The position numbers and the translations under genes were made by a program. The notes beneath the pieces are model-generated. The model did no database searches. It was not told the origin of the DNA and was given only the letters and a program-made list of their open reading frames with translations. Below, in pieces: positions 11,655 to 30,041 of a DNA stretch of 64,000 bases. The first letter of the stretch is position 1. Each line of letters starts with the position of its first letter. This stretch comes from Rhodobiaceae bacterium (GTDB lineage: Bacteria > Pseudomonadota > Alphaproteobacteria > Parvibaculales > Parvibaculaceae). Where the stretch lies: assembly GCA_003330885.1 (NCBI GenBank), contig CP030277.1:2108001-2172000 (forward strand), written 5' to 3'.

Positions 11655-14600
11655 TTAGAACTGGTACCGGATGGCAGCTGTGATGGAATGTTCCTGATAA
11701 TCGGTCTGGAACTCCCCGTCATAGAGGAAGCGGATCGAGAACTGATCGTCCATCTCATAAGTGATGCCTGCCCCGGTGGCGTAGGAGAACTTATCCCGCT
11801 CTGTCGTCTGACTGATGAAGCTGCCACCTCCGACAACATTCCCGGTGATCGCCTCATTCGGATCAGCAAGCTCCTGCAGACCGCGCACATAGGCTTCAGG
11901 AATGAGCTTCGCCCCATCTTCAAGAACATGCGTGTAACGACCGCTGAGACCCAACACACCCCGCAGAGAGGTCAGGCTCTGACTGCCCACCGTTGTCGGC
12001 AGAATACCCGTCTCTGTGTAGCCATCAATCGAGACCTTGTTGTAACGCAGACCCACATGAGGAGAGAGATCCAAGGCACCTTCTGAGAACACTTTGCCCA
12101 CTTCCACCCGGCTCATGAACTGTGTGCCATCATAATTAGCCGTGTTCACACCACCAGCTGCCAAACGCCTGCTGTCATACTCATTCATGCCATAACCAAC
12201 AGTGGCATTCACATAGAAGTCTTGCGGACGGTAGGTGCCGTAAAGCAGCACCCCATAGCCTTCAATGTCCTGATTGCTGTTAGCGCCGGTCCCAATCTCA
12301 TCCACCTTGGTGTCTGAATAGAAGAGTGCAAGCCCCATGCGCAGATGCTCTGCAACGTCTCCATCCATCCCCAGAGAGACCGCATAGGTGTCAGACTCAA
12401 AACCGTTCACACCCGACGGGTCAAACTCTGCAAAGCTGGCCCCAGCCCGGCCCCAGAGTGCCCAGTTCCCGGCACCACCAAGGAACTGTTCACCAGCAGC
12501 CACGCCCGTCTGGCGCTCGCCGCTATCCACGACCGTAAACCCACCACCACTCAGCCGATCCATGATGAGATCAAGCACCATGTCCGTGGAGACCACTGTG
12601 CTTGATCCAGTCGACCCACTTTCCGAGGGAAGACTGTCCTGAACCAGCTTAGCCAACTGAGCTTCCTGCTGCTCTACAGGGAACTGCGCCAGGAACTGAA
12701 CAATGGGATTATCCGTTGGGGCATTATCGATGAACTCGTCAATGGCGTCCGCAATGACTTCTGCATTGGTGCGGCCACCCTGGTTCTCCGTGGCTGTGCG
12801 CGCCCGAAGTTCTCTCTTCGTGATGAGAAAGAGCTCACTATTGGTGCGCACTTCAGAGGTAAAGCTGAAGAGCACCGTGTTGTCATAGACCTTGGCACCG
12901 CCGACATTATTGTCGACAATCATGCCCCCTTCACTGCCATCAATACCGGCAATCTTGATGGCACCCCCATCAGTGAGCTCCACACCCCGCGTCACATCCG
13001 CATAGATCTCAGAGCCCGCATTAAACGTCACCGAGCCATCGCCACCATTCAGGTACCCCGCACTTGTGTCCGACGCCACCCCAACACGGAAACGACCACC
13101 CGCATTAAACGTCGTGTCGCCTGTCACACGGATCGTTGACCCCGCAGGAGCCTGCAATGTCCCACGAGATGTCCCCATGCCAGAGACATTCAATTGACGC
13201 GTATTCACAGCAAAAGTCGTAGAACTCGTCGACAGCGTCGCACCCGCATTCACATTGACTTGCGTTGGAGTGGAGTAAGAGTAGAGATTGATCGCCGTCT
13301 CATTTCCAAACCGAGTTGTTCCGCTGTTGAAATTCACCGTTCCGAACCGCGCAATCGCGAAGTTGCCCATAGGCGTTCCCTTGGTGATCTCCAACGTGTC
13401 GCTCTGGCCAAAATTTACCACATTGTCTGCGGCGGCATTCCCCACAATCGACGACAGAGCCCCATTGATGACATTGCCAGTGCCCGTAATTGTCACAGAA
13501 TTGCTGGGGCCGTTTACACGAACAGCATAGGTTCCATCGCCAATCGTCCCGCCATTATTTGTGATCTTAGATGCTAAACTGAACCCAGTAACAACCTGCC
13601 CGTTAATGGTCCCAGAGTTGGTAAGGGCGAAAGTCGGGACGACCATTCCAAATCCGCCAGGGCGCTTCCGCCCGCTTTCATCAACATTACCATTTACCGT
13701 TCCATCATTCACGATAGTGACTGCGGTAGCGTAACCTATACGAATTGCGGTATCTGTACCGGTGATCGTACCCGTAGAGGTGTTGGTAATATTCACCGTC
13801 GGACCATAGGCAAAGATGGCGCTCGCGCCATACCGCAATAGAACCATCGTGCCATCGCCATTTGCCTGAGTGATGGTGCCGGAATTGGTGACATTCGTGG
13901 TGGCCAGCGTGACCGAAGTTGCGCGAACCCCATAAGCAGCATCTCCGGTGACAGAAACGGTGCCCGTATTGTTCACATTCGTCGTATTGCCATACGTGAC
14001 GATACCAGCGCTATTGTCACCGGTAACCGTGATCGATCCGTTGTTGGTCGCCGTCGATGTCCCGCCAGTCCCAAAAGCGACCAGGCCCTGACTGCGATCA
14101 CCTGTCAGAGTGATGGTTCCATCATTGGTGGCATTCGCCGTGCCGCCCGCATACTTACCGCCCAGCATTGCACCTTTATCAAACGGATTAACAACGCTCG
14201 CTGTGGCGAAAACACCAATGGAACTTCCTTGACCGCTATCTATGATGGATGCGCCCATGCCATTTGTCGCCGTTGCTGTCCCATACGTGCTGGCAAAAAC
14301 GCCGATATCTTGACTGTAACCCCTATAGTACATTGCGTCGGGGACATTTGACTGAAGCGTAACCTGTCCCGTATTGCTCGCGGTGGCGGCACCAAGGAAA
14401 CTCAAGGCGGCAACAGCTGCCGCGCCATCATCACCGGTCACGTTGATCGTACCGGCATTTGAGGCATTACTGGTTCCCGCACCAGTGCTTCCTATAGAGA
14501 TCACACCAGCAGTCAGGTCTCCACCTACATTGATGGTTGCACCACTAGCGTTTGTTGCCGTCGCTGATCCGCCTGTTGTGCTTGTTTCGGCGTACACCCC

Positions 14601-15317
14601 ATGAGACTGGTCGCCCTGCGTCGTCACAGTCCCATAGTTTCGACTTACCGCAGCATTCGCGTTTGATGCCGCCACACCGTAGCTTTCGCGTGCCTGGGTC
14701 AGGATTGTGCCGCGGTTGATGGCAGTCGAGGTACCAGTCGTCGCCGAAACCTGAATGCCAGCGCTCTCTACTGCCGTTGTCGTGATGGAGCCTGTTGCGG
14801 TGTTCTCCGCCGACACGTCACCAGCCCCACCAATAATGTAGAGACCATTGTGACGGCCATAGGTCCCCATCCCTTCCGGGATTTCACCAGTCCGGATGGT
14901 CCCGCTATGCTGGATCGTCCCGCCACTACCGGTAATGAAAATCCCGGAATTTATTCGTTGCTGATTGATAGTGACGCCTGTCGAATCGAGATTGAAGGCA
15001 TCTGTTGCAATGATCGTTAGATCGTCGCCCACAAACGGCGCAATCGAGTTAGTGGCAGGGCCCACGCATGTGATCGTCGCGCCATTTGTAGTTCCAGGTG
15101 TGCAAATTGTCGCTGCGGAGGCCGGTCCGCCCAGCACCATAATCGAGCTAGACGAGAGGAGCGCCGCCGCAAAGAAACGCTTCAAACCCGTTGCAGTCGA
15201 CCGATCACCCGAGGGAGCAATCACAGTCGAGCTGTAATAGCTGTACGCGCTCTGATTAAGCCTTTCAGAAACGGTCTGCTTCTCAGTTGAACCGGTCGTG
15301 CCTTTGATCAAAGCCAT
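11655..15317 (-). CDS. Large autotransporter (type V secretion) with repetitive passenger
   Basis: A 1220-residue outer-membrane autotransporter. An extended, basic signal region of about 69 residues ends in ASA. The passenger, about 70-860, is Gly/Thr/Asn/Ser-rich and is built of many degenerate units ending in TGD or GGD (for example TITLTGDRSQGL and SITVTGDNSAGI), the typical pattern of a right-handed beta-helix. The C-terminal autotransporter barrel spans about 940-1220, starting near NWALWGRAGASF and ending in the aromatic residue F1220 (AAIRYQF). Adhesion or surface-layer roles are common for such proteins, but none can be assigned. The ribosome site is strong (GGGTGGGG). The gene is convergent with the phosphatase gene. 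Confidence 0.92.
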   Translation of the reverse strand: MALIKGTTGSTEKQTVSERLNQSAYSYYSSTVIAPSGDRSTATGLKRFFAAALLSSSSIMVLGGPASAATICTPGTTNGATITCVGPATNSIAPFVGDDLTIIATDAFNLDSTGVTINQQRINSGIFITGSGGTIQHSGTIRTGEIPEGMGTYGRHNGLYIIGGAGDVSAENTATGSITTTAVESAGIQVSATTGTSTAINRGTILTQARESYGVAASNANAAVSRNYGTVTTQGDQSHGVYAETSTTGGSATATNASGATINVGGDLTAGVISIGSTGAGTSNASNAGTINVTGDDGAAAVAALSFLGAATASNTGQVTLQSNVPDAMYYRGYSQDIGVFASTYGTATATNGMGASIIDSGQGSSIGVFATASVVNPFDKGAMLGGKYAGGTANATNDGTITLTGDRSQGLVAFGTGGTSTATNNGSITVTGDNSAGIVTYGNTTNVNNTGTVSVTGDAAYGVRATSVTLATTNVTNSGTITQANGDGTMVLLRYGASAIFAYGPTVNITNTSTGTITGTDTAIRIGYATAVTIVNDGTVNGNVDESGRKRPGGFGMVVPTFALTNSGTINGQVVTGFSLASKITNNGGTIGDGTYAVRVNGPSNSVTITGTGNVINGALSSIVGNAAADNVVNFGQSDTLEITKGTPMGNFAIARFGTVNFNSGTTRFGNETAINLYSYSTPTQVNVNAGATLSTSSTTFAVNTRQLNVSGMGTSRGTLQAPAGSTIRVTGDTTFNAGGRFRVGVASDTSAGYLNGGDGSVTFNAGSEIYADVTRGVELTDGGAIKIAGIDGSEGGMIVDNNVGGAKVYDNTVLFSFTSEVRTNSELFLITKRELRARTATENQGGRTNAEVIADAIDEFIDNAPTDNPIVQFLAQFPVEQQEAQLAKLVQDSLPSESGSTGSSTVVSTDMVLDLIMDRLSGGGFTVVDSGERQTGVAAGEQFLGGAGNWALWGRAGASFAEFDPSGVNGFESDTYAVSLGMDGDVAEHLRMGLALFYSDTKVDEIGTGANSNQDIEGYGVLLYGTYRPQDFYVNATVGYGMNEYDSRRLAAGGVNTANYDGTQFMSRVEVGKVFSEGALDLSPHVGLRYNKVSIDGYTETGILPTTVGSQSLTSLRGVLGLSGRYTHVLEDGAKLIPEAYVRGLQELADPNEAITGNVVGGGSFISQTTERDKFSYATGAGITYEMDDQFSIRFLYDGEFQTDYQEHSITAAIRYQF

Positions 15318-21001: not shown

Positions 21002-21787
21002 TCACCTCAGAGCAAAGATGATGGGGATTTGTGTTGAAAAGGGCGCGACAGGCGGCGGGGGAAAAGGCGCCGACTTTTCGACCATCCGTCTCGCCGCACG
21101 GTCCAGATGAAACGAGCCTGAACCGGTGATGACGCGGACATCAGTCAGATGCCCTTGCCCGTCAATCGTGATCTTCAGCGTCGCCATACCTTCTTCCCGG
21201 CGTCGGCGGGCGGCAGACGGATAGGTTCGGTTCTGTTCAATGCGAGCCCGGATCAGAGCGAGATAAGCGTCCCGTTCGCCCCCGGCATTTGCATCAGAGG
21301 CACCAATACCCGCAGTCTGTGACACGGCACCCTCCCCAATATTAGGGGTTCCGGCATTTGAGGTCCCAACAGGGTGACCATCACCTTGTTCAGCAAGCGC
21401 CTGGCTCTCGAGCATCTCTTGCTCAACAGGCTCTGTCACCCGCGGAACTTCCACCGGCCGACGGTCGATGGGCATAGCCTGAACGACCCGTGGTTTCGGC
21501 GCGATTGTCTCCACGACCCGTTGAGTTGGTGTTTCTAGCCGAGGCTCAGGCTGGAGACTAGGCACCTCAATAACAGGCTCGCGAGCTGCTTGCTCAACCG
21601 ACCCAGTTGCTCCAGTACCACCTAGACGAACACTCAACTGACCGAGCACCTGCCCGCCACCGCCGCCGGACGGTGGAGAAAAGAAGAAAACACCCAACAC
21701 CAGACCATGTACTGCAAGCGCAAAAAAGATGGCAGCCGGAACATAACGACCGAGCCTAGGGGATGGGTTGAGTGCAATCATCGTCAC
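21002..21787 (-). CDS. tonB: TonB-type energy transducer of the heme operon
   Basis: A 261-residue TonB protein that links the ExbB/ExbD motor in the inner membrane to the outer-membrane heme receptor. One N-terminal membrane anchor is at about 15-36 (YVPAAIFFALAVHGLVLGVFF). A Pro/Glu/Arg-rich periplasmic spacer covers about 70-130, and the TonB C-terminal domain about 170-261 carries RIEQNRTYPSAARRRREEGMA and ends IPIIFALR. It is the last gene of the heme operon and overlaps the upstream exbD by four bases, which ties it to heme rather than general siderophore uptake. Confidence 0.9.
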   Translation of the reverse strand: MTMIALNPSPRLGRYVPAAIFFALAVHGLVLGVFFFSPPSGGGGGQVLGQLSVRLGGTGATGSVEQAAREPVIEVPSLQPEPRLETPTQRVVETIAPKPRVVQAMPIDRRPVEVPRVTEPVEQEMLESQALAEQGDGHPVGTSNAGTPNIGEGAVSQTAGIGASDANAGGERDAYLALIRARIEQNRTYPSAARRRREEGMATLKITIDGQGHLTDVRVITGSGSFHLDRAARRMVEKSAPFPPPPVAPFSTQIPIIFALR

Positions 21788-22188
21788 TTCCGCGCCAGTG
21801 TTACAATCTGCACATGCTGGATACCGGCCCCTTCCACGGACCGCAGAAGTGTGATGACCCGAACCGCCGGGCTTCGTGCATCCGCTCTCACCTCCAAAAC
21901 ATCGTCGCCCCCCCCTAAAACGCCGAGCAGAGCGTCCAAGTCATCACTGGTGAGATTGATACCCTCTCGCGAGAGGGCACCTTCAGCATCCATCGTCAGA
22001 ACGACTGTTTGCACCACCTCTTCCCTGGGCACTTCTGCTTCTGATCGAAGAGGATCAAATTCAGGGGGCAAAGGCTCTACAAAAGTACCCGCCATCATAA
22101 AAGCCAGCACCAACAACAGAACTATATTGATCAATGGCAAGGTGCCATCTGGCTTGTAACCTGTCGTTCTGGTGCGCAAAGTTTTCAT
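21784..22188 (-). CDS. exbD2: ExbD-like protein lacking the channel Asp
   Basis: A 134-residue ExbD/TolR-family protein with one N-terminal membrane helix and a periplasmic domain. In ordinary ExbD the helix carries a proton-conducting Asp in a PxIDV context. Here the same position is Asn21 (LPLINIVLLLVLAF), encoded by AAT. Its neighbour exbD has the normal Asp, so this copy is probably a partner subunit and not the sole proton carrier. The helix is otherwise intact, and the periplasmic half keeps ExbD-like strands (VQTVVLTMDAEGAL). It overlaps exbD upstream and tonB downstream by four bases each. Confidence 0.82.
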   Translation of the reverse strand: MKTLRTRTTGYKPDGTLPLINIVLLLVLAFMMAGTFVEPLPPEFDPLRSEAEVPREEVVQTVVLTMDAEGALSREGINLTSDDLDALLGVLGGGDDVLEVRADARSPAVRVITLLRSVEGAGIQHVQIVTLARK

Positions 22189-22586
22189 GGAGCGGCGTAC
22201 CCCACTGCGCCGGAAAGTTGCACCTTGGTAAAACCGGACGCGTTCAAAGCTTCGATCACGTCAATGACGCTCTGAATTTCAACGGCCTCTTGCGGCTCAA
22301 TAAAAACGGTTCTGTTTTTCCCGTGAGAGATCAGTGCAGCTATCGCTAGCTGCAATCCTTCAACAGCTTGACCGTCCAGCATGAACGATCCATCGTTCTG
22401 CAATATCAGGGATAACGTTTGTTCCTCGCCTGCCGCTTCTGAGAACTGCGCCTGGGGCGTCAATTTGATTTGACGCCAATCCACAAATTGAGACGCAAGC
22501 ATGAAGAAAATGAGCAAAATGAAGACAACATCAATGAGCGGTGTCAGACTCAAAACCAGCTTTGATCTAGGTTGCCGCAAAACCAT
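22185..22586 (-). CDS. exbD: Biopolymer transport protein ExbD
   Basis: A 133-residue ExbD with the canonical membrane helix LTPLIDVVFILLIFFM, including the essential Asp as D19, and a periplasmic domain of about 85 residues (TLSLILQNDGSFMLDGQAV). With ExbB it forms the proton-motive-force motor that energises TonB. The gene begins 12 nt after exbB and its stop overlaps the start of the second exbD-like gene as ATGA, indicating coupled synthesis of the two ExbD chains. Confidence 0.93.
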   Translation of the reverse strand: MVLRQPRSKLVLSLTPLIDVVFILLIFFMLASQFVDWRQIKLTPQAQFSEAAGEEQTLSLILQNDGSFMLDGQAVEGLQLAIAALISHGKNRTVFIEPQEAVEIQSVIDVIEALNASGFTKVQLSGAVGYAAP

Positions 22587-22598
22587 GAATGCTGCTCC

Positions 22599-23246
22599 TC
22601 AGTCCGCAGCCATTCCAAGAGTCTTTGGCAGGTCTCTGCGAACCTCTGCCACTTCCCCTATCGCTTGTTCCGCAAGGTCCGCAAACCGCATCAAGCGTCC
22701 TTCAAACCATCCATGAGCAAGCGTTGCTGGAATTGCGACAATGAGCCCAGCGGCTGTTGTGAGAAGCGCTACCCAGATACCTGCCGACAAGAGACCCGGG
22801 TCAACCGCACCGCCCGCTTCGGAAAGAGCTCGAAAGGCATCGATCATGCCGACCACGGTCCCAAGAAGACCGATAAGAGGGCTTAACATGGCAATCAAGC
22901 CAAGCATTCCGAGGCCACCTTCCAGAGGTCTCAGCTCACGGCGGGCAGCGCGAAACCCTGCCCTCTCAATCTGTTTCTCTTCCTTCAGCGCGTTGACCGC
23001 GGCTTGGGTTGCCGTCCGGACCCGCGCTAGAGCCCCTCTCTTTGCACGCTCTCCCAGCCGTGCTGAGGAGAACTGCATCACCTTGGCAAAAATCAACACA
23101 AGGGTGACGAAAGAAAGAGCGGCGAGCAGATAGAGAACCGGGCCACCCGCACTGGCCAACTCGAGTGCCGCCGTAAGAGCATCAACCGCCTGAGGGTCAA
23201 CAACCGACGCTTCTGATCCGCTAGAACTCAGAACAGTTTCTTCCAT
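22599..23246 (-). CDS. exbB: ExbB/TolQ/MotA family proton channel protein
   Basis: A 215-residue ExbB with three membrane helices: about 35-55 (VLYLLAALSFVTLVLIFAK), about 115-140 (LGMLGLIAMLSPLIGLLGTVVGMIDAF) and about 150-178 (LLSAGIWVALLTTAAGLIVAIPA). The second and third carry the conserved Pro, Thr and Gly residues of ExbB/TolQ. It forms the pentameric stator around ExbD. It starts 15 nt after hmuV, within the heme operon, so it is dedicated to heme transport. Confidence 0.92.
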   Translation of the reverse strand: MEETVLSSSGSEASVVDPQAVDALTAALELASAGGPVLYLLAALSFVTLVLIFAKVMQFSSARLGERAKRGALARVRTATQAAVNALKEEKQIERAGFRAARRELRPLEGGLGMLGLIAMLSPLIGLLGTVVGMIDAFRALSEAGGAVDPGLLSAGIWVALLTTAAGLIVAIPATLAHGWFEGRLMRFADLAEQAIGEVAEVRRDLPKTLGMAAD

Positions 23247-23261
23247 CGTTAAATTTCCTAC

Positions 23262-24095
23262 TCAAAGAGCCTGTCGAAAATCAATGACGGAGGCGTTCCG
23301 CCGATGATTCCCTGTCGGCACGATTAGCCTGCGCCCTGTATCCGGGTCTTCGACCTGGCGAACAGAGAGATCAAACACGTCTGCAATCAGAGACGGTTGC
23401 AGAACATCATCCGGAGCCCCGGTCGCCACCACACACCCATTGGCAAGAATGACAACTCGCGTTGCGTAGAGCGCCGCAAGATTGAGATCATGAACAACAG
23501 CCACCACGCCAACGCCTTTTTCCGCGAGCCTCACGGCCAAATGCAAAACGGAATGTTGATGCGCGAGGTCGAGACTTGACGTCGGTTCATCCAGGAGAAG
23601 AAAGCGAGGTTCGTCGTCGTTCTCCCGCCATATCTGTGCGAGCACGCGAGCGAGCTGAACACGTTGCTGCTCCCCGCCTGACAGTTGCGTGTACACCCGT
23701 CCAGCGAGGTGACCTATGTCAGTTTCTTCAAGGGCGCAGTCGACAGCAATCCTGTTCGACGATGCATCAACCGAGGCTCGAAAAGGGTCGCGTCCCATGG
23801 CCACCACATCACGCACCTTGAAGGGAAAACTAAGGGACGCCTTTTGAGGCATCAGAGCTCTTTTGCAGGCAAGAGACGCAGGAGAGAGATGTTGAAGTTC
23901 ATCTTCGCCTATTCGCACATCTCCGCTCAGCACTCTTTGTTCACCGCTCAATACGTTGAGGAAGGTAGATTTACCCGCCCCATTTGGACCGAGAACCGCA
24001 ACCAGTTCACCCGGGTGGACTTCCATGGACGCGCCGGTCAAAACCTGACGCGACCCCAGCACCACATCCACATTCCGCGCTGCAAGGGTCACCAT
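23262..24095 (-). CDS. hmuV: Heme ABC transporter ATP-binding protein HmuV
   Basis: The ATPase of an inner-membrane heme importer (277 residues). Walker A is GPNGAGKST, the ABC signature LSGGEQQRVQLARVLAQ, Walker B RFLLLDEPTSSLD and the H-loop VAVVHDLNLAAL. The frame is open to 24221, but ATG 24095 has a strong ribosome site (GGGAGGG) and begins at the family's normal first strand. The start lies seven bases inside the end of hmuU. It drives transport of heme delivered by HmuT through HmuU. Confidence 0.93.
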   Translation of the reverse strand: MVTLAARNVDVVLGSRQVLTGASMEVHPGELVAVLGPNGAGKSTFLNVLSGEQRVLSGDVRIGEDELQHLSPASLACKRALMPQKASLSFPFKVRDVVAMGRDPFRASVDASSNRIAVDCALEETDIGHLAGRVYTQLSGGEQQRVQLARVLAQIWRENDDEPRFLLLDEPTSSLDLAHQHSVLHLAVRLAEKGVGVVAVVHDLNLAALYATRVVILANGCVVATGAPDDVLQPSLIADVFDLSVRQVEDPDTGRRLIVPTGNHRRNASVIDFRQAL

Positions 24096-25168
24096 GATGT
24101 TCCCTCCCGCGCTGCTCTGCGCAACAACCAAAGGAAAAAGGGAGCGCCCAGCAGCGCTGTCAGAACACCGATAGGCAGCTCCGCGGGTAGTGCCAGCGTT
24201 CTTGCAACTACGTCGGCCCATAAGAGAAGTGCCGCTCCCCCAAGCGCCGATGCAGGCAGGAGAATGCGGTGATCAGGACCAACCACCATGCGCAACAGAT
24301 GGGGAATAACGATCCCCACAAAACCAATCGTGCCGGACACAGCAACCGCAGCGCCCACACCTGCGGCCACCAGCGCAACGCAGAGATATTTGAACCGGTC
24401 CACATTCAAACCGAGCGAGGCAGCCTCCCGTTCTCCTAACAACATAAGATTGAGCTTGTGCATCAGCATGGGCATCGCGAGGAGAATGACACTCATGATC
24501 GCGATAGCCGGAAGTATCGTTGTCCAGGTCGCACCGCCTAAGCTTCCAAGCATCCAAAACGTGATGGATCTCAACTGTTCATCATTGCTGATAAACATCA
24601 TGAGACCCATGATGGCACTGCCAAGCGCTGCCACCGCAATGCCACTCAACAAAATCGTTGTTATCGGCGTCTGCCCATTCACCCGAGCAACCGCAACAAC
24701 AATCATCGTCGCAACAAACCCACCAGCGAATGCAGCCACTGGAAGCGCATAGAGAATGATTGCACCCATGGCACCAAACGCTGTGCCGAGCACGATCGTC
24801 GTCACCGCTGCGGCCCCGGCGCCCGCCGACACACCGATAATGCTGGGCTCTGCAAGAGGGTTGCGGAACAGTGCCTGCAGAACAGCACCCGAAACCGCCA
24901 GCGTCGCACCAACCATGCCGCCGAGCAAAACCCGCGGCATCCTGATTTCCAGGACAATGGCGTGTGCGAGAGGGTCTACGGCACCCTGCCCCGTCGCAAA
25001 ACTCCACAAGACAGTAACAACGTCCCCGGCCCCCAGATCGGCAGCGCCACTGGTAAGGCCGGTTAACACCGCTGCAAAGAGCAACACGCCTAGCACTGGC
25101 AATGCCAAAGACCGCAAGACCACCGAAAGATCGATGCGGCCCCGCTCCTGGATCCCGAGGGTGCTCAC
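24089..25168 (-). CDS. hmuU: Heme ABC transporter permease HmuU (FecCD family)
   Basis: A 359-residue FecCD/BtuC-type permease with about ten membrane segments. Typical blocks are RMPRVLLGGMVGATLAVSGA near residue 73, NPLAEPSIIGVSAGAGA, FWMLGSLGGATW and GTIGFVGIVIPHLLRM, the last with the Gly-rich loop that contacts the ATPase. It starts four bases inside the end of hmuT and its end overlaps hmuV. It forms the inner-membrane heme channel. Confidence 0.93.
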   Translation of the reverse strand: MSTLGIQERGRIDLSVVLRSLALPVLGVLLFAAVLTGLTSGAADLGAGDVVTVLWSFATGQGAVDPLAHAIVLEIRMPRVLLGGMVGATLAVSGAVLQALFRNPLAEPSIIGVSAGAGAAAVTTIVLGTAFGAMGAIILYALPVAAFAGGFVATMIVVAVARVNGQTPITTILLSGIAVAALGSAIMGLMMFISNDEQLRSITFWMLGSLGGATWTTILPAIAIMSVILLAMPMLMHKLNLMLLGEREAASLGLNVDRFKYLCVALVAAGVGAAVAVSGTIGFVGIVIPHLLRMVVGPDHRILLPASALGGAALLLWADVVARTLALPAELPIGVLTALLGAPFFLWLLRRAAREGTSW

Positions 25169-26091
25169 GGCGCCCCCAAAACCATCACATGTGACGATGG
25201 GACAGCTTCGCGCCCCAATGTGGGAATGTCGGCCTCTGGGTAGAGAAGAGTTGCAAGGTCAGCTGCAGCCTCTGGAGCCCGAGGACCAAATCCAAGCAGA
25301 TAGTGGCTATCGATTATGGCCACCCGCCCCTCGGCGCCAGCTGCGGTGCGAGAAACAATGTCCAGTTTGGCAACGCCCTCTGGACCACCCAGCGCCTCGC
25401 ACACATGGCTGGGCAAAACAATCCAGTCTGGGTTGGCAGCCAGGACAGGCTCCATGGAGATCGCCTTGTACCCTTCCATCTCCGGGAAGGCCAAAGCACC
25501 GCCAGCAAAATCAATAATTGCCGAGGCAGCGGTGTTTGCGCCAGCTCCCAACAGGGGCCCATTGCCCGCCGAAAGGATAAGCAGCACACTCTTCTTAGGG
25601 CCTGCAGACAGTCCAGCTGCCAAACTATCGAGTTGCTTTGCAACGCTCTGTGCAAGACGCCGAGCATCCTCCGTAAGACCTGTTGCTTCACCAACAGCAT
25701 TGATCATCGCGCTCAGTCCGTCAGCGGTCCGCCCGACCGGAATTTGTGCCAAAGGAATGCCTGACCCCTTCAGCTGATCAATGGCCGCCGCAGGACCGGC
25801 CTCACTAGAGAGCAGGATGAGATCCGGCTCCATAGACAAGACACCCTCAGCAGAAAGCTGACGAAGGTACCCAACCTTTGGGAGCTGCAGAGCGGAAACC
25901 GGATAAGTACTCGTCGTATCTACCGCACGAAGCTTGTCTCCCAGTCCGAGCGCGAACACTGTCTCCGTGACCGCACCGCCAACGGATATGATCCGGGCAT
26001 ATGAACTGGATTGCGCGAGCGCACCGCGCCTGGATAGGAACACTGCGCTGCCCGCGCCGAGCCCTGCAAGGGCTGACCGCCGGGAGATCAT
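25165..26091 (-). CDS. hmuT: Periplasmic heme-binding protein HmuT
   Basis: The substrate-binding protein of the heme importer (308 residues from this start). The N-terminus MISRRSALAGLGAGSAVFLSRRGALA looks like a twin-arginine or Sec signal. The mature part is a two-lobed periplasmic-binding fold: RIISVGGAVTETVFALGLGDKL at the N-lobe, KVGYLRQLSAEGVLSMEPDLIL, and the C-lobe with SGAGN-like GNGPLLGAG. ATG 26091 overlaps the hmuS stop as ATGA and has AGGGG upstream, so it is preferred to an open frame reaching 26139. The heme ligand residue cannot be picked with certainty. Confidence 0.9.
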   Translation of the reverse strand: MISRRSALAGLGAGSAVFLSRRGALAQSSSYARIISVGGAVTETVFALGLGDKLRAVDTTSTYPVSALQLPKVGYLRQLSAEGVLSMEPDLILLSSEAGPAAAIDQLKGSGIPLAQIPVGRTADGLSAMINAVGEATGLTEDARRLAQSVAKQLDSLAAGLSAGPKKSVLLILSAGNGPLLGAGANTAASAIIDFAGGALAFPEMEGYKAISMEPVLAANPDWIVLPSHVCEALGGPEGVAKLDIVSRTAAGAEGRVAIIDSHYLLGFGPRAPEAAADLATLLYPEADIPTLGREAVPSSHVMVLGAP

Positions 26092-27146
26092 GCGGCCACC
26101 CCTTTGTCCAAAACATTCTCCGACACAATGGCACGCCAATCATCGCGTTCCACTTGTCCAGGTTTCCGTTCACCGAAAAACTGAATAAGCATCACACCGT
26201 CTTTGTCATAAAGCTCGACTGAAGTGACATCTCCATCTTCAGTCGGCTTCCGCACGACCCAGGCGTCAGTCACAAGGTCGGACCGCAAATGGAGGTTGAA
26301 GCCATCATCAAGCACATTGATCCACGGCCCCATCGGCTCAATGCGAGTCACCTGGCCGGTATGGATTTGAATAATGCCCTTATTGCCAACGAAAGCCATG
26401 ATCGGCGCTCCATTGCCTGACGCTGCGTGAAGCAGACGCTCCGCCGCATCAACGGGCGCGCGTTCGGCAAAGCGGCCTTCGGCAAGCCGAAGTGCCTGCT
26501 GGCGCCCCACTTTAAACTTCCGGATAAGCGGGAAAAAATCATGCGTATCCTTCAGTGTGCTCCACTTTGCCAGAAGCCCCTCTGCATCAATCTCGCCGTC
26601 CGGACGATCCGGCGTTTCAGCAGGCAGCGGTGTTACGTCAACAAGCGTCGCCTGATCCTCGTGAATAAAGCGTGCGACGAGCGCGTCATAAGCAGTGTCG
26701 TTGCTTTCTGCCCGCAGATAGACCTTGTGAAGCGCTGTGCCGTCCGGCCCAAAAAATTGCAAGCTGCGACGAGGACCAGACCGTGTATCCTCATTAACGG
26801 CGAAACCAAACTCCCAATTCTTCAAAAACAGACGAAGGTCAATGTCGTGATTGAGCACAATGCCGCCATGCGCCCCAAATGACATGTTGGCGTATTCACC
26901 GACCTTCTCATGCACCACGCCATGATTGCGCGTCAGCGCCATCACTTCACCCAAATCACCAAAGGCAGTGATCACCTCTGACCAAGGGCCTGTTAACCTG
27001 GTAGCAGTCGTGCCAAGACCCGCACAGACAAGCTGCGCTTCGCTAATCTCCAATCGCTCCGCGAGATCCCGTGCTCTGATATTCGGGGTGTTGGCGCGCT
27101 CGGCCTCAATTTTGGATCGCAATTGATCAATGGAAGTTGCGGTCAT
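26088..27146 (-). CDS. hmuS: Hemin-degrading factor HmuS/HemS
   Basis: A 352-residue cytoplasmic heme-handling protein of the HemS/HmuS/ChuS family, which binds incoming heme and in some species breaks it down. The tandem structural repeat is visible: two halves each with a W-x-x-L/I segment (NHDIDLRLFLKNW and ILDDGFNLHLRSD-like) and matching helices RARDLAERLEISEAQLVCAG and KVGRQQALRLAEGRFAERAP. Whether this one is a true oxygenase or a heme chaperone cannot be told. It lies 18 nt after hmuR and overlaps hmuT by four bases. Confidence 0.92.
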   Translation of the reverse strand: MTATSIDQLRSKIEAERANTPNIRARDLAERLEISEAQLVCAGLGTTATRLTGPWSEVITAFGDLGEVMALTRNHGVVHEKVGEYANMSFGAHGGIVLNHDIDLRLFLKNWEFGFAVNEDTRSGPRRSLQFFGPDGTALHKVYLRAESNDTAYDALVARFIHEDQATLVDVTPLPAETPDRPDGEIDAEGLLAKWSTLKDTHDFFPLIRKFKVGRQQALRLAEGRFAERAPVDAAERLLHAASGNGAPIMAFVGNKGIIQIHTGQVTRIEPMGPWINVLDDGFNLHLRSDLVTDAWVVRKPTEDGDVTSVELYDKDGVMLIQFFGERKPGQVERDDWRAIVSENVLDKGVAA

Positions 27147-27164: not shown

Positions 27165-29369
27165 TTACCAGTTAAGGGTGTAGGTGACATCGACCAGAAC
27201 CGAGCGGCCTTCTTCAAGCGTGTCAGACGACACCCGCTGATATTCTGCGTCGAAGAGATTTTCCGCCGTCACGCCAAAGCTGAACCCGTCGAGAGGCCCC
27301 TCCACCGGACGCCACCGGGCATAGACTTCATGGATCTGATAACTGTCGCGATGTTCGCTGGTATCTGTGCCTTCGCTGAAGTCATCAGCAAAAGTTGACT
27401 GCCAACCAACGAAAGAGGCGATCTCAGGAAGCTTCACCCGGATATCCGCGGTAACCTGATCGGCTTGTTCGATGCCAATGGGCTGACCTGTGGCCGTGTT
27501 TTCCGTTTCCATTGTCTGACCAGAAAGAGAGACCCGGAACCGATCTGAGTCATAACTCGTCTCCAGCTCGAAACCAGACAGCTCAGCATCTGCAATATTC
27601 ACTGTTTGTGTAGTTCCACCACATCCTGTTGGGTCAACAGCAATCGAGACAAAAGCCCGACACGTGAAGCCTGGCACCAGGAAGGGCGCCGGGAAGAATT
27701 GTGGGTTTGTTACGTCGGCACGTTGAATAACTTCTAACGATAGGAAATTTTCACCCTCTGTTGAATAGTACCCACCTTTGGCCTGGAAAATGTCGCCAGC
27801 GCTCAAAACGTCTTCGAATTCAAAGCCAAGCCCCGTTTCCCAAGTCGTCGTGCTTTGTGCTTCCAAGCTCGTGTTGGGGACAAAAGTGTTAAAACCCGCA
27901 AGTCCACCAGGTCCAAATACTGGGAAATGGGTTCCCAGCGGGAAGAGTTCATCCAGCCGTGGCGCGCGGAATGCGTCACCATAAGATCCATAGACAAAGG
28001 TCCAAGGCACAGGTGCAAAACGAGCCGTTATTTTCGGGGAGACCTGGCTATCGCTCGTTTCAGTCCCAGCCGTGTTTGCACTATCAAATGTGTCAAATCG
28101 CACGCCCGGCGTGAGGGAAAGCTCACCATCTTCCAATCCGAACGGGGAGAACCAGGTAAAACTAGTCTGGACAAAGGCACCAAAGAAGTCCTGATCACCG
28201 GTAACCACACCACCCCGGACGCCCGCACCGCTGGCGCCTACCGCGCTATCCCTGGCGACCTCGAAGCCACCTGTCACAGCAAGAGCGACATCATCTGACA
28301 GCATGAACCGGCTGGTGTTTGTCATCTCGAGACCAACGGTGTCCAGGTCGCGTTGATTCAATACGCCAGCACCCGTGCCCGTCAGCGGCGTCTCGTCAAC
28401 TGTGTTTGTTGAGCTATAGACAACACCAGAAAAGTCGACAAGATCTTGCCCTGCGGGTTTGGAGGTAAACCCAAGAGTGAAAGTCTCACTGTCGATGTCT
28501 TTATCGTTGAGAGCACCACCGGCAGCCTGCCCATTTCCAGGTTCGCGGGCATCATTGGAGAAGCGCTGCCAGGAAAGACGAAGTGCCGTGTTATCTCCAA
28601 TATCGAACGTGCCTTTCACCAGACCTGAGATGATGTCATCTTCAGCATCTAGCTCAGTCCCATTTCCCAAGCGCACATCGCCAGACTGACGCAGCACGAG
28701 GCCAGCAAAAATGTCCGCCTCTTCCATGGGCTTCGTATATGCCAACAAGCGCTGGGCGAACTCATCATTGCCACTTCGAAAACTCAATCCGGTCCGCAGA
28801 CCATGGGTCTGCCCGCCTCGAAGTAAATCGCCCGCCGTGAGTGTGCGCAGCGCTATGACGCCACCGGTCCCACCGGACCCATAAAGTGCGGAGCTCGATC
28901 CCCGGACCACTTCAAGTTCACCCAAAAAGGCTGGGTCAATAAATGCGCGGCCATCATGGCCCGAAACGAAGCTCTGACGTGCACCATCAAGCGTTACGAT
29001 AATGTCCGCACCAGAGAACCCTCTAATCGTCGGCACTTCGCCTGTACGTCGCGGACCACCTACTGCCGTGACGCCCGGAATGTCGTCGAACAGATCACCA
29101 AGGTTAGAGGGAATTTCTTCCGCGATGTCCTCTGCGCCTTTGACAGTCACCATGCCAGGGACAGCAAAAGCCTCCATCGGCGTACGAGTTGCTGTCACGC
29201 TGATGGGCGCAACTCTGTCGCGTGCTTCCTCTGCCATTGCCCCTGTTGAGACAAGTACCGCTGCACCACTGATTGCGAGGGCCGATACACCACCCAGAAG
29301 AGCTGACCGCCGCATATTGCCCGTCAGGACACCCGCTAAACTCACATTGCACTCAAAATTTTTACCCAT
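27165..29369 (-). CDS. hmuR: TonB-dependent outer-membrane heme receptor HmuR
   Basis: A 735-residue outer-membrane receptor for heme or hemoproteins. The signal region ends at GAMA, followed by a TonB-box-like PISVTATRTP and a plug domain with VPTIRGFSGADIIVTLDGAR and VVRGSSSALYGSGGTGG. The barrel has the heme-receptor FRAP box (AFRAPRLDELF) followed by a His (LGTHFPVF) and a VPNTSLEAQ segment in place of the usual NPNL. The final residue is W after VTYTLN. ATG 29369 is preferred to the upstream frame reaching 29462 because it starts a plausible long signal peptide. It is the first gene of the operon. Confidence 0.92.
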   Translation of the reverse strand: MGKNFECNVSLAGVLTGNMRRSALLGGVSALAISGAAVLVSTGAMAEEARDRVAPISVTATRTPMEAFAVPGMVTVKGAEDIAEEIPSNLGDLFDDIPGVTAVGGPRRTGEVPTIRGFSGADIIVTLDGARQSFVSGHDGRAFIDPAFLGELEVVRGSSSALYGSGGTGGVIALRTLTAGDLLRGGQTHGLRTGLSFRSGNDEFAQRLLAYTKPMEEADIFAGLVLRQSGDVRLGNGTELDAEDDIISGLVKGTFDIGDNTALRLSWQRFSNDAREPGNGQAAGGALNDKDIDSETFTLGFTSKPAGQDLVDFSGVVYSSTNTVDETPLTGTGAGVLNQRDLDTVGLEMTNTSRFMLSDDVALAVTGGFEVARDSAVGASGAGVRGGVVTGDQDFFGAFVQTSFTWFSPFGLEDGELSLTPGVRFDTFDSANTAGTETSDSQVSPKITARFAPVPWTFVYGSYGDAFRAPRLDELFPLGTHFPVFGPGGLAGFNTFVPNTSLEAQSTTTWETGLGFEFEDVLSAGDIFQAKGGYYSTEGENFLSLEVIQRADVTNPQFFPAPFLVPGFTCRAFVSIAVDPTGCGGTTQTVNIADAELSGFELETSYDSDRFRVSLSGQTMETENTATGQPIGIEQADQVTADIRVKLPEIASFVGWQSTFADDFSEGTDTSEHRDSYQIHEVYARWRPVEGPLDGFSFGVTAENLFDAEYQRVSSDTLEEGRSVLVDVTYTLNW

Positions 29370-30041
29370 TACCCCAAAACCCCTGTAGCTATTTAGACCT
29401 ATTTGCAACATCAAGTACGCACAAGATGTCCGATCCCCCAGGTTACATGGGCGTTTTGTCACTGTTGTTATTAAGAGTCAATATTATTTGCAAAAAGATT
29501 TTGTCAGAAGACGCTCAGGCGGCATCCAACCGTGAAGAAACCAGACCGCACGGCACAGGCTCGTCCGGTCGCAGACAGCCACGGAGATCAAAGATGCCAA
29601 AGACCAGAGACCAGAGGTTCACTGTCTTCAGAGTTTTGTTCTGGATGAAATTTGGGTGCGGAGACAGGCAGCGCTCACCCGCATGCCGGCGTTCGAGACC
29701 TACGCCCAGACAGCAAGGGCAGCGCTAACGTTAGTGTCTCTACGAACTGAAGGATCGAGATCCATCTGACCGGACGCAGGAGGTAAGAAGGCAGCCATGA
29801 CACTGACCAGGTTCTGATCCATGGCAGAACCCGACGAACGATCAAGCGTCAGACTGGTCGTCAATTGTCATAGCATCACCATCAACTTCCAGAACCAAGA
29901 CATAAACCCGGAATTTTCACCAATATGTCTTGTTCGATAGTCCTGGCGCTAAGTAGCGATTATGCTCATTCCACCAGGTATTTAGAAAACGACCACCGCA
30001 CCATCTCCATCATCACCGTCTATTGACCAAAGGAAAATGCC
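29370..30041. other. 672-bp intergenic region upstream of hmuR and the Tat-SDR gene
   Basis: This region separates the divergent hmuR and SDR genes. It should hold both promoters. An AT-rich candidate metal-regulator site lies at 29467-29493. On the minus strand, positions 29700-29822 form a 40-codon open frame (MDQNLVSVMAAFLPPASGQ and on) whose composition looks coding-like. It has no recognisable homology and could be a relic. I see no tRNA, no mobile element and no convincing further gene. Confidence 0.45.
29467..29493 (-). promoter_or_regulatory. Candidate Fur/iron-regulator site upstream of hmuR
   Basis: On the minus strand this reads TGCAAATAATATTGACTC followed by TTAATAAC, an AT-rich imperfect inverted repeat. 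The TGCAAATAAT half resembles Fur sites reported in Alphaproteobacteria. It is about 100 nt upstream of the hmuR start, a suitable place for iron repression of the heme operon. The match is partial, and Irr or RirA type control is equally possible. Confidence 0.3.

Follow-up and report, generated by a model that had tools for sequence, protein, structure and literature searches.

A tandem of Asp-type and Asn-type ExbD genes in a heme-uptake operon: a putative variant Ton motor with one proton site

In the usual model of 5:2 motors the two aspartates of the axle take turns, each proton corresponding to a step of 36 degrees. Solved motors of this stoichiometry have two ExbD helices in the ExbB pore. 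Their aspartates lie in unlike environments, and at each step the proton is likely carried by just one of them (PMC12215075). A heme-uptake operon of a Rhodobiaceae bacterium, found in a stretch of 64,000 nucleotides (contig CP030277.1, positions 2,108,001 to 2,172,000; the window), codes for two ExbD proteins, the second of which has an asparagine in place of the channel aspartate. The question raised by this locus is what kind of axle such a pair builds.

The heme operon and its two exbD genes

The operon is complete, with the gene order hemin receptor, hmuS, periplasmic binding protein, FecCD permease, ATPase, exbB, exbD1, exbD2 and tonB (Table 1). The tandem exbD genes were correctly described in the initial annotation, in coordinates as in residues (D19 followed by N21). 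Both products exceed the cut-off of the Pfam ExbD/TolR family PF02472 (25.4 bits). D19 belongs to the ExbD1 helix SLTPLID19VVFILLIFFMLA, within SLTPLIDVVFILLIFFMLA, and N21 to the ExbD2 helix TLPLIN21IVLLLVLAFMMAG, within TLPLINIVLLLVLAFMMAG. Searches of the PDB by profile and by sequence pair both residues with Asp25 of the E. coli ExbD (6tyi_Y) and with that of the ExbD in 7ajq, in agreement with that description; the aspartate at the Asp25 place is present in ExbD1 and absent in ExbD2. ExbD1 matches the canonical Ton ExbD equivalogs TIGR02803, TIGR02804 and NF008429 with 43.9, 33.5 and 44.6 bits, every score being below the NCBI equivalog cut-off, while ExbD2 gives no match to these three. 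By sequence ExbD2 is a homologue of ExbD, yet not an Asp-type ExbD.

Table 1. Features of the heme-uptake operon, in window coordinates
Feature	Coordinates	Strand	Evidence
tonB of the operon	21002..21787	-	TonB_C, 61.9 bits
exbD2, Asn-type ExbD (N21 replaces channel Asp)	21784..22188	-	PF02472, 38.8 bits; 134 aa
Asn21 codon AAT of exbD2	22126..22128	-	sequence
ATGA overlap, exbD2 start / exbD1 stop	22185..22188	-	sequence
exbD1, canonical Asp-type ExbD (D19)	22185..22586	-	PF02472, 83.8 bits; 133 aa
Asp19 codon GAT of exbD1	22530..22532	-	sequence
exbB, MotA/TolQ/ExbB ring protein	22599..23246	-	Pfam MotA_ExbB (PF01618), 96 bits; alignment to TolQ 8odt
ExbB Trp158 codon (GIW signature)	22773..22775	-	sequence
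Heme ABC transporter ATPase (HmuV type)	23262..24221	-	NF010068, 318.7 bits vs cut-off 261
FecCD-type permease	24089..25168	-	306.7 bits
Periplasmic binding protein	25165..26139	-	Peripla_BP_2, 115.6 bits
HmuS/HemS-type protein	26088..27146	-	HemS, 271.8 bits
TonB-dependent heme/hemoglobin receptor	27165..29462	-	TIGR01785, 362.8 bits vs cut-off 316.85

The complete genome has six matches to the MotA/ExbB family. Three of them adjoin ExbD-type genes and correspond to TolQ and to the ExbBs of two D/N pairs, as tandems of an Asp-type and an Asn-type exbD are termed here; one other is a flagellar MotA-type gene inside the window. The ExbD set of the genome consists of TolR and the two D/N pairs, the second pair being localized at G000:C1:1241082-1241848, and the two D/N motors are the only ExbBD-type motors besides TolQR. 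As the genome also codes for six Plug-domain TonB-dependent receptors, the D/N motors are presumably active, and Ton-dependent uptake in this bacterium presumably runs on them unless TolQR substitutes.

The gene that follows the second D/N pair (L038:8166-9077, same contig) codes for a protein with a TonB-like amino terminus and no TonB_C domain. Its carboxyl terminus, DCYDM..LRLYYxxC..SSxLCKxGR, is conserved across the family in the partner of the second D/N motor. A solitary second TonB (G000:C1:106624-106860, L208) is encoded away from any ExbBD and must share a D/N motor or TolQR. The window also has a 1220-aa ORF (11655-15317, minus strand) coding for a putative autotransporter with a repetitive passenger and a barrel-like carboxyl terminus.

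Distribution of the Asn-type ExbD

Within the genus, all relatives that were read have Asn in the second ExbD of the orthologous heme operon (41-70% identity), and the residue recurs in the corresponding heme-operon ExbDs of the family's more distant genera and of further families. The alignment of such copies, proposed in the initial annotation as a check, thus finds Asn conserved, and the concern that it might be a private change is excluded. The Asn-type second copy is present in non-heme tandems too, so that the D/N pair extends well beyond heme operons.

The search with an Asn-type profile covered 241 genomes from the class and 249 from the phylum, and the loci were read. This sampling yielded 77 distinct Asn-type ExbDs. 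Together with loci found by an ExbB motif (see below), it places the D/N pair in no fewer than 31 families, 27 of them in the class and 4 in other parts of the phylum. Among the 237 genomes of the class sample that do not belong to the family of the window, at least 33 carry the pair, a lower bound as weak matches were only partly read. The Asp-type gene comes first and the Asn-type gene second wherever the flank is readable. Phaeobacter inhibens, with a D/N operon on pP72_b (L180), and plasmids of Leisingera are among the carriers; there both genes bear no other annotation than 'biopolymer transporter ExbD'. Plasmid copies were retrieved with divergent Asn-type queries, while the window ExbD2 as query gave no match in plasmids. 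Very divergent D/N pairs are found at loci L108 and L109 (genomes G053 and G272), followed by a gene for a long protein with no obvious TonB carboxyl terminus.

The Asn-type ExbDs have a mean pairwise identity of ~32%, and Asn is constant in 77/77, a figure that is partly circular since the sequences were grouped by this same residue; its codon is AAT in 40 and AAC in 37 of them. The 46 other ExbDs of the sampled set all have Asp. Because of the circularity, two tests independent of the ExbD2 residue were added, one based on an ExbB motif and one on a tree of ExbB and ExbD1. Judged from these sequences and from the tree below, the recurrence of Asn is far above chance.

The ExbB ring of the D/N systems

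The window ExbB scores above the PF01618 cut-off and has both pore threonines, T130 and T164 being the equivalents of E. coli Thr148 and Thr181 in the alignment to TolQ 8odt. These threonines are found in 73/73 ExbBs of D/N systems. The ring of the D/N systems differs from that of most Asp-only systems in the residue before position 176 (motif GIWxALLTT), which is Trp in 72 of the 73 D/N ExbBs and Ser or Ala in most Asp-only systems. The window ExbB carries this signature at W158, followed by V159 (22770-22772) at the place of E. coli Glu176, and the window genes display the three features of the proposed Trp-ExbB D/N class: GIWxALLTT in ExbB, Asp in the first ExbD and Asn in the second. With the threonines kept and Trp added, the proton path is retained in a ring that is marked as different. 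This combination is the strongest indirect argument for a joint evolution of ring and paired axle. A link between Asn and loss of Glu176, a residue called 'essential' in E. coli ExbB (PMC8599685), was considered and rejected, as position 176 in D/N systems is V in 31, E in 27 and other residues in the rest. This position is variable in D/N ExbBs, and absence of the glutamate should not be taken as loss of function.

The first test used a DNA pattern for GIWxALLTTA, blind to ExbD, in 299 genomes; the control gave zero. It found 29 loci in 23 genomes, with an ExbD tandem at 29/29, of which 27 are D/N and 2 have Asp in both copies (D/D). For the second test a tree of ExbB and ExbD1 was built with ExbD2 left aside. 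It was also preferred for counting changes because the full-set tree, a quick one, has many open forks. With L119, wrongly labelled as Trp-type, left out, it comprises 89 Trp-ExbB tandems, 85 with Asn and 4 with Asp in the second copy. Parsimony places Asn at the base with three changes to Asp, some branch supports being modest.

The three lineages of the Trp-ExbB class with Asp in both ExbDs are G489 (L081/L138), G132 (L111/L161) and the DUF4384-linked plasmid tandems. The first two are chromosomal tandems of the class in which the second Asp was apparently regained; in both the next gene is TonB-like. The plasmid tandems of Leisingera and Parasedimentitalea share with the window a Trp-ExbB (GIWQALLTT) and an ExbD tandem and nest inside the D/N class on the tree, but they have Asp in the second ExbD as well, followed by a gene for a DUF4384 protein, not TonB. 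The suggestion that a second-copy Asp accompanies a non-TonB partner was accepted in part, as the plasmid tandems fit and the two chromosomal ones do not. The cassette Trp-ExbB, ExbD, ExbD, DUF4384 with Asp in both ExbDs occurs on Roseobacter-group plasmids (including L182 and L183), one of which has type VI secretion genes adjacent.

Tandem exbD operons are already known. Sphingobium SYK-6 (PMC8599685) and Xanthomonas (PMC3551730) have, like the window, exbD1-exbD2 behind exbB, the likeness of the latter being one of gene arrangement; unlike the window, SYK-6 keeps Asp25 in both copies (PMC8599685). The non-Trp D/D tandems that were read have an ExbB of the GIA or GIS type. The E. coli and S. 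marcescens ExbB-ExbD-TonB systems of the 5:2 family have in common with the window the ExbB and ExbD families, the ring threonines, an Asp-type ExbD and an adjacent TonB; the window differs by its two ExbD genes, the second with Asn, and by Trp before position 176 and Val at Glu176. Two axle-type proteins per ring family are also found in Myxococcus gliding, with AglQ/AglS and AglR, and in paired vWA transducers, for which a heterodimer is proposed or discussed; there, in contrast to the window, Asp is kept in both partners (PMC9389320 and PMC12204202, respectively). No earlier description of the D/N ExbD pair was found in the open-access literature, preprints aside. The pair, filed as an ExbBD motor variant, is likely new to the literature.

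A probable heterodimeric axle and its alternatives

Membership of ExbD2 in the ExbB complex, on which the initial annotation had made its proposal depend, is supported indirectly by the invariant tandem with a single upstream exbB, the translational overlap, the co-divergence of the two ExbDs and the Trp signature, which is specific to these tandems. The -4 (ATGA) overlap of exbD1 and exbD2 recurs in 47 of 85 tandems. ExbD1 and ExbD2 distances are correlated beyond ExbB (partial r 0.65, reached in 0/500 permutations), a correlation to which noisily measured shared ancestry can contribute. Compared with three relatives, exbD2 has a pN/pS of 0.31-0.37 and exbD1 a similar one of 0.26-0.30 (pS ~0.6-0.7); ExbD2 is under purifying selection.

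The reading favoured here, with a probability of roughly 0.6, is a variant Ton motor in which an Asp-type ExbD1 and an Asn-type ExbD2 would sit together in an ExbB pentamer whose ring threonines are normal, leaving one proton site. As the ExbB pore has room for only two helices, the simplest partner for an ExbD2 with a conserved pore helix is ExbD1, probably 1:1 in one pore. The heterodimeric axle would drive the operon's own TonB and hemin receptor, with the proton carried by the Asp of ExbD1 only. Asn resembles a neutral, protonated Asp, so that one of the two axle positions would be held permanently in that state and could hydrogen-bond the threonine ring. Such an axle would make one protonated contact per 72 degrees and use ~5 rather than 10 protons per turn, with fewer power strokes; it might alternatively rock between two states. 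The broader proposal, a widespread and ancient class of Ton-type motors whose heterodimeric axle has one Asp and one near-invariant Asn in a Trp-adapted ExbB ring, is held with slightly better than even confidence.

Two observations made in other bacteria count against the D/N heterodimer. E. coli ExbD D25N is inactive (PMC11658791), hence Asn is not neutral in every background. Xanthomonas takes up iron without its tandem exbD2 (PMC3551730), which by the likeness of gene arrangement may weigh in the same direction.

The inactivity of D25N also means that an Asn/Asn axle should be dead, and ExbD2 could then form homodimers in the same ExbB rings as a non-conducting pool, regulatory or idling, that holds TonB or limits proton leak while ExbD1 homodimers do the work. 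The strongly conserved pore motif of ExbD2 makes its entry into the pore probable. This reading is nevertheless unlikely: a dead motor translationally coupled 1:1 in every system would be wasteful, and the ExbB signature and pair-wise co-divergence would be left unexplained.

Somewhat more doubtful is an adaptor role of ExbD2 outside the pore, such as periplasmic docking of TonB or peptidoglycan, around an axle of ExbD1 homodimers. Iron uptake without exbD2 in Xanthomonas would fit such a role. The most conserved part of ExbD2, however, is the pore helix PLINVVFLLLIFF and not the periplasmic domain, and an adaptor gives no reason for Asn at the proton site.

It is improbable that both subunits act and the Asn-type copy performs a complete rotary step by itself, in which protons would be relayed by Asn or pass it by, the pair having evolved mainly to bind an asymmetric TonB. 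The three lineages that tolerate Asp in the second copy do suggest that asymmetry of the dimer predates or outweighs Asn. Against it, Asn has no titratable group and the neutral state is kept in 85/89 tandems though Asp is one transition away; a search of the ExbD2 helix for an acid replacing the missing Asp found none in the core, which has no other ionisable residue, and only periplasmic-end residues in some sequences. A private mutation or a decaying duplicate can practically be dismissed, with conservation in at least 31 families, purifying selection and nothing found in its favour.

The obligate heterodimer with one proton-carrying Asp put forward in the initial annotation appears, from comparative evidence, to be the best reading of the window operon, though not as a strict obligation within the Trp-ExbB class: the three D/D lineages indicate that the architecture does not depend on having just one Asp. 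These lineages provide natural controls for the role of Asn. ExbBD, TolQR and MotAB are currently modelled with two equivalent aspartates that alternate in steps of 36 degrees. A natural motor with only one Asp, kept in many families, would directly probe the need for both aspartates, the number of protons per turn and rotation versus rocking; if the heterodimeric reading is true, the D/N pair would represent a naturally occurring 5:2 rotary motor with a single site.
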